A program made the position numbers and the translations under genes. Below are positions 1,774 through 12,175 of a DNA stretch of 64,000 bases, one piece after another; the stretch's first letter is position 1, and every line of letters starts with the position of its first letter. A model generated the notes under the pieces. That model worked only from the letters and a program-made list of their open reading frames with translations. It was not told the origin of the DNA and ran no database searches. Source of the DNA: Closterium sp. NIES-65 (lineage: Eukaryota; Streptophyta; Zygnematophyceae; Desmidiales; Closteriaceae); NCBI GenBank assembly GCA_948144175.1, contig CANXME010001258.1, forward strand, positions 1,907,001-1,971,000. The letters run 5' to 3'.

Positions 1774-1986
1774 CTAGAACTGTTGACGTGTCAGTTTCTT
1801 TGTCAGAAATTCGGCTGCCATGTCTCCAGTTGGGCAGTACGTGAGTTTGACCTTGCCCTTGTCAATTTCGTCTTTGACGAAAAAGTAGCGGAGGGCGATA
1901 TGCTTTGTGCGATTCACGAAGCCGGGTTTGTTCGCAATCTTGATCGCACTCTGATTGTCGCAGAGTAACGTGAAGTGCCCATTCAT
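1774..1986 (-). pseudogene. A: RNase H C-terminal piece
   Basis: This encodes the end of a copia RNase H. CDNQSAIKIANKP, RTKHIALRYFFVKDEI and DMAAEFLTKKL are the standard closing motifs of copia polyproteins. It lies next to the polypurine tract and 3' LTR, as expected. It is a fossil fragment. Confidence 0.85.
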
Positions 1987-2011
1987 TATTACTTTCGCTT
2001 CCTGCAGAAGC

Positions 2012-2386
2012 TGTCAGAATCCCAACCACTAGACCATTGGGATAAAAGGGCTTGTTTCAGTAGCGGGTCAGTGCGCCCATAACCCCCCAGGCGAACGCGC
2101 CTGTAACCCTCTCCAGGATCAATCGGGCATCCACAGTGCAGATCTACTGACACCCCCCCACACTGGGAGGCCCAGGACTAAGCACAGTGGCAACGGCCTA
2201 CATGTGCATACACCGGGAATCGAACCCGAGACCGCTCTGATACCATGTCAGAATCCCAACCACTAGACCATTGGGATAAAAGGGCTTGTTTCAGTAGCGG
2301 GTCAGTGCGCCCATAACCCCCCAGGCGAACGCGCCTGTAACCCTCTCCAGGATCAATCGGGCATCCACAGTGCAGATCTACTGACA
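2012..2386 (-). mobile_element. TRIM-1: terminal-repeat retrotransposon in miniature
   Basis: This is a 375-bp element of two 141-bp direct repeats (2012-2152 and 2246-2386), identical by eye, around a 93-bp middle. On the minus strand the middle begins with the primer site TGGTATCAGAGC and ends in a run of seven G (a polypurine tract). The element is flanked by a perfect 5-bp target duplication, GAAGC (2007-2011 and 2387-2391). It has no coding capacity, and both terminal repeats have TG...CA ends. The primer site lies beside a tRNA-like A box and B box. It sits inside copia A, so it is younger than A, and its identical repeats suggest very recent insertion. A second copy is at 11737-12113. 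Confidence 0.93.
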
Positions 2387-2587
2387 GAAGCTCCATCAGG
2401 TACAGTCCTTCGCGAACAGCTGCGCTGGCGGCGATGAATTCAGTTTCGGCTGACGGAAGAGCAATGAGTTCCTGCTACTGGGAGTTCCAAGAGATGAGTC
2501 CAGCAGGTTGGAGCTGAAAATTATTCTTGTGCGGGAGCATTTGTTGTCAATGTCTCCTTCGTGATCTGCGTCTACGTAGCCATGGAG

Positions 2588-3653
2588 CTAAAGAGTAGCG
2601 GTGAGGTTAGCTTCGTAGGTGAGTCTGATGTCAGGGGTAAAGACGAAGTATTGAAGTGCTCGGCATAGATCCAGTAGATTCTCCCCTTCAGGTCGCTTCG
2701 GGTACTGAGCGAGCTGGCTTGCGACGTAGGAGAGATAGATGATGGCACCCCAGCTGCTGCTGATATAGCCGATGATCTTCGATGGAGAGAGGTGTGGTAT
2801 CCGGTTCGTGATTAGGAGGAGGAGTGCGGAAGGGAGTAGTGAGGTTGATCGGTGCGACAATAAATTTCTTCGCGAGTGTTTTCGCGTATTTGGCGGCGGA
2901 GAGGTGAATGGAGGTGGCGAACTAGGTGATGTTGAGGCCCAGGAATTGCGTGACATTGTGATTGATTGTCACCTCGAGCTTCTCTTTGATGGCTACCTCA
3001 AATTGGTCTAGCAGCTCCGTGTCGTCGTCGGTGTAGAGGTCGTCGACATAGGCGACGATGAGAATAAACTTGCCGCGCGACTCCTTCCGGTACATCCCGA
3101 GGTCATGTGGCAGCTGTTTGAATTCGAGCTCCGCGAGGATGGTGTGCACGTACTGCTGCCATAGTCGAGGTGCTTGCTTGATCCCATGGAGGGAATTTAG
3201 AAGGAGACAAACGTCGCCATCGTTTTCCTCGAAGGCATGCGGCTGCTTGGCAAAGATAATGGCATCGGCGGGAGCGTACAGGAACGCACTGCCAACATCG
3301 ATTTGGCGGAGCGGGCGCTCTTTGTCAGCTGCGATGCAAATGAGGATGCGCACTGGGGTGTGCCTTCCGACAGGTGCGTAGGTGAGGTCGAATTCCACCA
3401 TATGAGTTTGCTCGAAGCCGCGTATCACCCATCTCGCTTTATATTTGCTGATGGAACCATCCGCAAACGTTTTGATGCGGAAGACCCATTTGCCACTAAG
3501 AATTTTTCTCCTCATGGCTGATGAGCGTGGGACCAATTTCCACGTGCCGGGGTTCTTCAATGCTGCGGCTTCTGCGGCCATGGCTGCATTCCGTTTCTCA
3601 CTCTCAAGGCTTCGGGAGGACAGCAAGTTGTGCAGCCGGACAGCGTGGTTCAT
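2588..3653 (-). pseudogene. A: reverse transcriptase and start of RNase H
   Basis: The part near 3650-2922 carries copia RT signatures: SGKWVFRIKT, KARWVIRGFEQ, RQIDVGSAFLYAPAD, LNSLHGIKQAPRLW and YVDDL. The piece near 2956-2588 continues into the RT thumb and RNase H side (a YPKRPEGENLLDLCRALQYF-like stretch). These parts are in different frames. Integrase lies to the right and RNase H to the left. Confidence 0.85.
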
Positions 3654-10534: not shown

Positions 10535-11736
10535 ACTTCCAAGTTCACCTGGGGGGTCGAAGGATTTTTTCGATGCTGACACAGCTTCTCCTGGGCCTGG
10601 AACCTGTCCCTAAGCCTTTGCAGATGTGTAGGCTTCTCATGTGGGAAGTGGGAAGGCTTAACACATCGCTACTGGGAGACAATATTAACTCCTCGGAGCG
10701 CTCGACCCTTTTCAACACTACGGAGTTGTTTTCTCAACTTCTCAAGTACCTGAACTATTTCTAAAGGTTTTCTCTTAGCCTCTAATTCTCCCTTAAAATC
10801 CTAAAGGGCTTTGAAACAACGAGAAGTAATATTATTAATTAAAGTATCTTTATATGATAGCTTCAACAAATTCTTACTCTCGGGGTGTTGGGCTGGAGTT
10901 TCCCGGTCGGTGAAGAGTATTTTCTTGTGAAGTCTCCCTTCATCTCGATGACTCCACCTGGTGGCGGCCGGTCAAGATGTTTTATATTCGCGCCATCATT
11001 TTCTCCTTTTTACACCCGCTCTAAAGTCGCCACGTCGTCGCCTTTTTCATTTTCCGGATCTTTTTGCGATCGCCAGGTCGATCCGCGGCTACTGCCGACT
11101 CATATTTTTTTACCTCGTGAGTGCCTCACTATTTTAGCCCTGCAAATCCGCCTGTGCTTTCTTCAATCTCCAACACGCCAAGATTCGATGTCTATTTGCG
11201 TCGCAAAATTTGCACGTTTCAGATTTTGGCGGTCGCTGCTTCGCGTCGATCTTGTTGATATCCATCGGGTTGGCGCTCGTGGGGGGTGCCGATCATCCTG
11301 TGCCGGATTTTCTTGTTCACCATGTTGCATCATGTTTCGTGTTGACCCTTGGTCAGCGCGTCAAACCTTTCTGCTGCGCAGACCGTGTCACGGTAGCTAC
11401 TGTTGTTCGCTGCGATCACCTGCAGGCAGACTTCGTTTTTTGGCCTTCGGACATGTCGTTGATTCTGTTAAAGAAGTTTTTTCATCTGTTGCATGTACTG
11501 CGCTACATGCCGAATCGATTGGTTCGCGATCAATGCCTCTAGCCGTAGAAGCACCGCGTGGGTCTGCTCCTGCTCGGTCAGGAGTGCGGCAATTTCTTGA
11601 GCAAAGTTGTTGCCTTGCCCCTCCATGCCTGGTGACAGCGTTCGAAAACCGAATTGAGGAGGCCAAAAGTTTTAACGTGGAATCGGTTTTACGTACCCGA
11701 ATCGGCGCTTTTCGTTGTTACCATCGTTGTTTTTTT

Positions 11737-12113
11737 TGTCAGTAGATCTGCACTGCGGATGCTCGATTGATCCTACGGGGGGTTACAGGCGTGTTTGCCT
11801 GGGGGGTTATGGGCGCACTCTGACCCGCTACTTAACAAGCCCTTTTATCCCAATGGTCTAGTGACTGGGATTCTGACATGGTATCAGAGCGGTCTCGGGT
11901 TCGAATCCCGGTGTATGCACATGTAGGCCGTTGCCGCTGTGCTCAGTCCTGGGCCTCCCAGTGTGGGGGGGTGTCAGTAGATCTGCACTGTGGATGCCCG
12001 ATTGATCCTACGGGGGGTTACAGGCGCGTTTGCCTGGGGGGTTATGGGCGCACTCTGACCCGCTACTTAACAAGCGCTTTTATCCCAATGGTCTAGTGAC
12101 TGGGATTCTGACA
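11737..12113 (+). mobile_element. TRIM-2: second TRIM copy, inserted in gypsy K
   Basis: This has two 142-bp terminal repeats (11737-11878 and 11972-12113) around a 93-bp middle. TGGTATCAGAGC immediately follows the first repeat, and a seven-G polypurine tract precedes the second. The flanks show TTTTT on both sides (11732-11736 and 12114-12118), which fits a 5-bp duplication but is low complexity. The two repeats differ at about four positions (near 3%), so this copy is older than TRIM-1. K's leader continues on either side, as seen by comparison with G at 56800-56900. Confidence 0.92.
11854..11908 (+). promoter_or_regulatory. tRNA-like A box and B box across the TRIM LTR/primer-site junction
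   Basis: TGGTCTAGTG with downstream TGGGATTC at 11854-11873 resembles the A-box/D-arm region of tRNA-Glu. GGTTCGAATCC at 11898-11908 matches the B-box consensus and sits in a T-arm-like hairpin (CGGG TTCGAAT CCCG). The offset between the starts of the two boxes is 44 nt, as in real tRNA genes. TRIM-1 has the same pair on the minus strand (A box ending at 2270, B box 2216-2226) at the same offset. The A box lies in the LTR and the B box beyond the primer site. Function as a Pol III promoter is inference. Confidence 0.6.
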
Positions 12114-12175
12114 TTTTTAAGGCTGGAATTTTGTGGTTGAATCAATTCTCGTGTAAATGAGCTCTGATTACCAAG

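Follow-up and report, generated by a model that had tools for sequence, protein, structure and literature searches.

The window, by which we mean the whole 64-kb stretch of DNA analysed, contains two complete TRIMs of 377 bp (copy 1) and 375 bp (copy 2; Table 1). Both show what characterises a TRIM, namely two short LTRs, a PBS and a polypurine tract (PPT) within less than 1000 bp and no coding capacity; the PPT of either copy has a G7 run, and 5-bp target-site duplications (TSDs) flank both. In both copies, the LTR tail carries TGGTCTAGTG, the LTR ends in CTGACA and the PBS TGGTATCAGAGC follows directly; we take this PBS to be of the tRNA-iMet type, as it resembles the tRNA-iMet complement. 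A perfect B box, GGTTCGANTCC, stands 7 nt past the PBS in copy 1 as well as in copy 2, and in each the A box of the LTR tail begins 44 nt before the B box begins, which on rechecking agrees exactly with an earlier sequence-only reading of this DNA. The A box of copy 1 is slightly off consensus because its last letter is A and not G. As the A box is found in both LTRs and the B box in neither, only LTR-internal junctions carry both boxes.

Table 1. Coordinates of the two TRIM copies and their parts in the window.
Feature	Position	Strand	Remarks
Copy 1, whole element	11737-12113	+	142-bp LTRs, 93-bp internal domain, TSD TTTTT
Copy 1, 5' LTR	11737-11878	+	142 bp, TGTCAG...CTGACA
Copy 1, T4 in 5' LTR	11843-11846	+	just upstream of the tRNA-like stretch
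Copy 1, A box TGGTCTAGTGA	11854-11864	+	in LTR tail; last letter off consensus
Copy 1, PBS TGGTATCAGAGC	11879-11890	+	12 nt, directly after LTR end
Copy 1, B box GGTTCGAATCC	11898-11908	+	internal domain; predicted T-arm-like hairpin, 7-nt loop
Copy 1, PPT	11961-11971	+	terminal G7
Copy 1, 3' LTR	11972-12113	+	A box present, no B box after it
Copy 1, TSD TTTTT	left 11732-11736, right 12114-12118	+	
Copy 2, whole element	2386-2012	-	141-bp LTRs, 93-bp internal domain, TSD GCTTC on both sides
Copy 2, 5' LTR	2246-2386	-	141 bp
Copy 2, A box TGGTCTAGTGG	2270-2260	-	in 5' LTR
Copy 2, internal domain	2153-2245	-	PPT ends at 2153
Copy 2, PBS	2245-2234	-	
Copy 2, B box GGTTCGATTCC	2226-2216	-	
Copy 2, 3' LTR	2012-2152	-	

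The window holds two matches to GGTTCGANTCC, both of which are the B boxes of the TRIM copies, compared with a mean of 0.14 in the shuffled window and at least two matches in one of 100 shuffles; two B boxes in 64 kb are unlikely to occur by chance. The flanks of copy 2 (window positions 2387-2600 and 1940-2011, minus strand) look like one coding stretch that contains the insertion and that, by its motif, we take to be a copia-type RNase H.

Programs that recognise whole tRNAs did not pick up the elements. ARAGORN found no tRNA in the 64-kb window, and Rfam at gathering score found no family, be it 5S, tRNA or other, anywhere in it. At E ≤ 10 on the B-box strand, the sole match of a tRNA-related clan among the matches listed is a 15-nt tmRNA piece (8.5 bits) that covers the B box; these matches omit one lower-scoring match of the same clan, and a weaker tRNA match at the junction is thus possible. 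At the level of the letters themselves, a putative Pol III promoter sequence of the tRNA type is present.

Copies and subfamilies across the genome

Pattern counts were made over the assembly of 874 Mb in 2400 contigs. Exact pairs of A and B boxes (TGGTCTAGTG-N30-38-GGTTCGANTCC) occur 3,512 times (1713 + 1799), compared with no match of the reversed pattern, although not every match is a TRIM, one of them being a tRNA gene according to ARAGORN (locus L002). PPT-LTR junctions number 3,330, matches of the PBS together with the B box 2,989 and mid-LTR seeds 9,075, each with a control of 0, and LTR starts with up to two mismatches number 5,599 (control 3). The position of the A box in the LTR end and of a perfect B box past the PBS, first noted for the window together with the tRNA-like spacing and the T-arm-like hairpin, thus extends with these to thousands of copies and three subfamilies. 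The rbcL product of the assembly matches large subunits of the green type (best match 9chz), which suggests a host of the green lineage, perhaps a green alga; a tRNA-Lys locus was set aside as evidence on the host since it lies on other contigs than rbcL.

The sample that we analysed comprises 100 of the 3,330 PPT-LTR junctions, collected with a seed that is blind to both boxes; it is not random because it consists of the first 100 in contig order. Classified by the downstream LTR, 56 copies belong to subfamily S3, 23 to S2 and 20 to S1, and one to none of these. A TRIM LTR tail lies upstream of the internal domain in 88 copies and is absent in 12. The A box is exact in 71 of the sampled copies, the B box in 83 and both in 59, and in those with both boxes the A box is always in the LTR and the B box in the internal domain. 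Their start-to-start spacing is 44 nt (30 copies), 47 nt (20), 48 nt (6), 45 nt (2) or 46 nt (1); spacings of 44-48 nt suit type-2 promoters. Some copies have a shortened A box, TGGTTAGTG (for example L128, L144, L145, L155 and L177).

TSDs were assessed for the 88 copies with an LTR tail: 54 are perfect, four have one mismatch, 13 copies have none, in 11 another PBS follows and six are not assessable. Three copies that lie far apart on contig C53 (L144, L145 and L146) have the TSD GAGGT and variants in common and therefore look like duplicates of one insertion. A comparison of the three subfamily medoids, each a real copy, shows that the LTR start and the middle of the internal domain differ between subfamilies, whereas the LTR tail through the PBS and the B arm is almost identical except that S3 has 3 nt inserted after the PBS. 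Little besides PBS, B arm and PPT is left of the internal domain in the S3 medoid.

The A region looks like animal-type tRNA-Glu, but the likeness to tRNA-Glu, which had been noted from the sequence, is not specific, as TGGTCTAGTGGT is common to the TRIM and the tRNA gene L002, which reads to the eye as tRNA-Gly-like. This gene (L002:1490-1566, minus strand) has an unusually long A-to-B spacing of 48 nt. A pattern search aimed at tRNA-Glu genes returned tRNA genes read as tRNA-Gly(TCC) and TRIM copies, and in an Rfam tRNA search in which 63 of 18,457 candidates were scored, the two loci examined (L039 and L055) were not nuclear-looking.

A putative split promoter and its rivals

The presence and spacing of the two boxes suggest, and we hold it with moderate confidence to be the most likely reading, that the TRIM RNA is made by Pol III from a type-2 promoter split between the LTR tail (A box) and the region past the PBS (B box). 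TFIIIC would bind both boxes only where an LTR is joined to an internal domain. The transcript would begin about 8-18 nt upstream of the A box in the 5' LTR, extend through PBS, PPT and U3 and, within the 3' LTR, either end at the T4 or continue past it. A tRNA of the iMet type would prime its reverse transcription, and the enzymes for reverse transcription and integration would come from larger LTR elements with the same PBS. As to the terminal repeat, we can only speculate that a repeat of about 10 nt would result if the RNA began at the CAA upstream of the T4 and that a start after the T4 would require read-through. More tentatively, and with somewhat less than even confidence, we suggest that a promoter complete only across the LTR/PBS joint confines transcription to the replication-competent junction, with 3' and solo LTRs Pol III-silent because they are without a B box.

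The T4 of the 3' LTR may serve as the Pol III stop. It is intact in 78 of the 85 assessable copies, and no T4 lies between the A box and this T4 in 82 of the 85; the T4-free path is permissive and not evidence, because 56% of mononucleotide-shuffled units are also without T4. In plants, T4 is a weak terminator.

Conservation was measured as departures from the majority of each subfamily in 88 aligned copies. Departures amount to 14 of 704 cells (2.0%) at the eight fixed A-box letters and 19 of 880 (2.2%) at the ten fixed B-box letters, compared with 30 of 1056 (2.8%) in the PBS, 273 of 6512 (4.2%) in the LTR tail outside the A box and 168 of 3752 (4.5%) in the remaining internal domain. The box letters are thus about half as variable as other sites, with modest significance: 78 of 5000 shuffles of the column labels equalled the conservation of the boxes, as did 438 of 20000 pooled circular shifts of the box pattern (by subfamily, 44 of 160 shifts in S1, 10 of 160 in S2 and 29 of 136 in S3). 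The expectation from the sequence-only reading that the boxes are kept above the LTR background is therefore mildly favoured overall but not in S1 when all 11 letters of each box are counted, as no excess conservation is seen there (A 0.957, B 0.952, all columns 0.961). Between subfamilies, the A box and the LTR tail around it are about equally invariant; as the second LTR half is near-identical between the subfamily medoids, the A box is not set apart from its neighbours. Given that the copies are young and that some of them are related (L144-L146), we regard the conservation of the boxes as moderate evidence only.

These figures bear directly on the possibility of Pol II transcription from the LTR, with the tRNA-like stretch as a captured tRNA or SINE relic that has no promoter function and is kept because the copies are young. 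Within-subfamily identity is about 96% everywhere, so that the retention of the boxes needs no selection, and S1 is without a clear excess of conservation at the boxes. Pol II transcription is also the usual case, applying to most LTR retrotransposons (PMC12786077). We nevertheless consider this origin of the RNA unlikely, as the box letters overall vary half as much as other sites and S3 kept the B arm while losing the remaining internal domain.

The boxes could also be RNA structure and not a promoter, with hairpins flanking the PBS guiding primer binding or packaging, which we think has only a small chance of being correct. U5-PBS structures have such roles in retroviruses and Ty1. The folding prediction gives three neighbouring hairpins: the first surrounds the A box, the second spans the LTR/PBS joint, which itself lies in a predicted 7-nt loop, and the third is the T-arm-like hairpin at the B box that had been proposed from the sequence. 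Moreover, ATCCCAA...TTGGGAT and ATCCCAG...CTGGGAT around the A box tend to co-vary among 170 LTR tails, with mixed exceptions of both kinds. However, the junctions fold no better than shuffled sequences (z -0.66, matched in stability by 42 of 200 shuffles, and z -1.08, matched by 28 of 200), the paired changes may each have arisen once and been inherited, and a perfect B box at tRNA spacing is not expected from a structural role.

That the B box is a by-product of an extended PBS, with the iMet T-arm complement itself resembling a B box, is very improbable: sequences ending ATCGAAACCTGGCTCTGATA (five of the 100 matches listed), presumably iMet genes, do predict TATCAGAGCCAGGTTTCGAT, but the extended complement is not colinear, complementarity ending after the 12-nt PBS and the B box being offset by several nucleotides, the B box has the elongator letters TTCGAAT, and the A box is left without such an explanation. 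Many matches of ATCGAAAC-GACGR-GCTCTGATA occur in the genome, possibly as the opposite strand of a further LTR family whose primer site is extended.

Three further lines were pursued and rejected. T4-truncated copies were considered as traces of Pol III RNA ends, for which GCCCTTTTGTCAG gave 8 + 19 matches (control 2 + 1); in the 10 of these 27 loci that were read, an LTR-LTR junction is present only at L069, a site already contained in L033, eight look like one coding stretch, by its motif presumably copia-type, and L073 is something else. LTR tails without an LTR body, as traces of RNA starts, gave no signal with 3 of 217 tails (L007, L034 and L180), of which L007 lies next to a foreign LTR end in inverted orientation and resembles a nested insertion, and the other two break elsewhere. 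Insertion into T-runs that supply terminators was dropped because the TSDs are varied.

Known relatives, foreign LTRs and arrays

If a split Pol III promoter indeed drives the element, several known systems invite comparison. tRNA-derived SINEs have a type-2 promoter with A and B boxes, as the present element does, but are without LTRs, PBS and fixed 5-bp TSDs; the LINE-type retroposition without LTRs that marks a SINE does not describe an element with LTRs, PBS, PPT and 5-bp TSDs. Pol III boxes also occur in retroelements such as BLV and foamy viruses, where the Pol III products are small RNAs of a Pol II-transcribed virus and not the replicating genome.

Among TRIMs, Cassandra is transcribed by Pol III from a 5S promoter and resembles the present element in its Pol III promoter (a candidate one here) and its tandem LTR-internal arrays, and the reported start and end of its RNA both fall within the 5S stretch (PMC10886601, PMC7215508, PMC12786077). 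In Cassandra, the 5S promoter lies whole inside the LTR and every LTR consequently carries a promoter, in contrast to the present element, and no 5S match at Rfam gathering score, as a 5S-derived promoter in the LTR would suggest, was found in the window. Ordinary plant TRIMs are similar in size, in forming tandem arrays and in having no genes, and a term search of a paper on them for tRNA, Pol III and promoter gave no match (PMC4717578).

A close parallel is Helenus (Kojima 2024), TRIMs of fungi, animals and one lycophyte whose LTRs contain tRNA-derived A and B boxes and which are grouped with Cassandra and Ajax as TRIMp3; their use of Pol III is likewise a presumed one (PMC10886601). Helenus and the present element have in common tRNA-type A and B boxes as the presumed Pol III promoter, a PBS, a PPT and short LTRs, as well as 5-bp TSDs (in the fungal and plant Helenus families) and tandem arrays (in one Helenus family); the Selaginella family, from the green lineage, has an LTR of 120 bp and an internal domain of 85 bp (PMC10886601). 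The present element thus seems, by its sequence, to work on the Helenus principle. The definition of Helenus does not cover it, as its B box is not part of the LTR: the tRNA-derived sequence of Helenus is in the LTRs, whereas here the LTR alone has the A box only and the B box lies past the PBS (PMC10886601). Because tRNA-type TRIMs were already published in 2024, the novelty that had been suggested for the layout beside Cassandra narrows to the split across LTR and PBS (PMC10886601). No promoter split in this way was found in a search of mainly freely accessible literature.

If true, the split promoter would add a third arrangement to the two described for Pol III-driven TRIMs, in which a 5S or a tRNA promoter lies whole inside the LTR; the Selaginella Helenus family is the only other tRNA-type case of the green lineage in the literature surveyed (PMC10886601). 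It would also account for the way in which an element of 350-380 bp keeps its 3' and solo LTRs free of promoter activity, and it would mean that the leader adjoining the primer site can serve as promoter as well.

Some copies carry foreign LTRs. In eight of the 100 sampled copies (L085, L102, L105, L116, L117, L136, L143 and L163), a foreign 5' LTR with a TAGTGGGG-type motif common to all eight is fused exactly at the PBS to a TRIM internal domain, and three further copies (L080, L086 and L162) have other foreign ends. Where the internal domain stands behind a foreign LTR joined to it at the PBS, the proposed promoter would be broken because the A box is lost, which makes these copies natural A-box deletions. 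At L116, identical 5-bp duplications (GTATC) flank two different LTRs, so that this copy seems to have been inserted as a unit. At L085 and L136, a TRIM LTR is followed by a PBS-like stretch and a non-TRIM leader. Such fusions would fit strand transfer at the common PBS between co-packaged RNAs, and the families that contributed the foreign LTRs may be the helpers. L098 is interrupted by a foreign LTR end. L086 combines a TRIM U3 with foreign sequence over the final 20 nt of the LTR, up to the PBS, and the break lies near the expected transcript start.

For comparison, we used 16 loci with the foreign LTR that is also fused to TRIM copies (two of them 7,063 bp apart on the same strand at C687), of which nine have a PBS-like stretch directly behind the LTR. 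None of the nine leaders of this larger LTR family contains a B box, even when two mismatches are allowed, and in seven of the nine the following ~100 nt contain T-runs of 7-10, which would hinder Pol III.

Tandem LTR-internal arrays with matching 5-bp duplications at their outer ends were found at L132/L133, L158/L159, L166/L168 and L171/L172, and three of these four arrays mix subfamilies.
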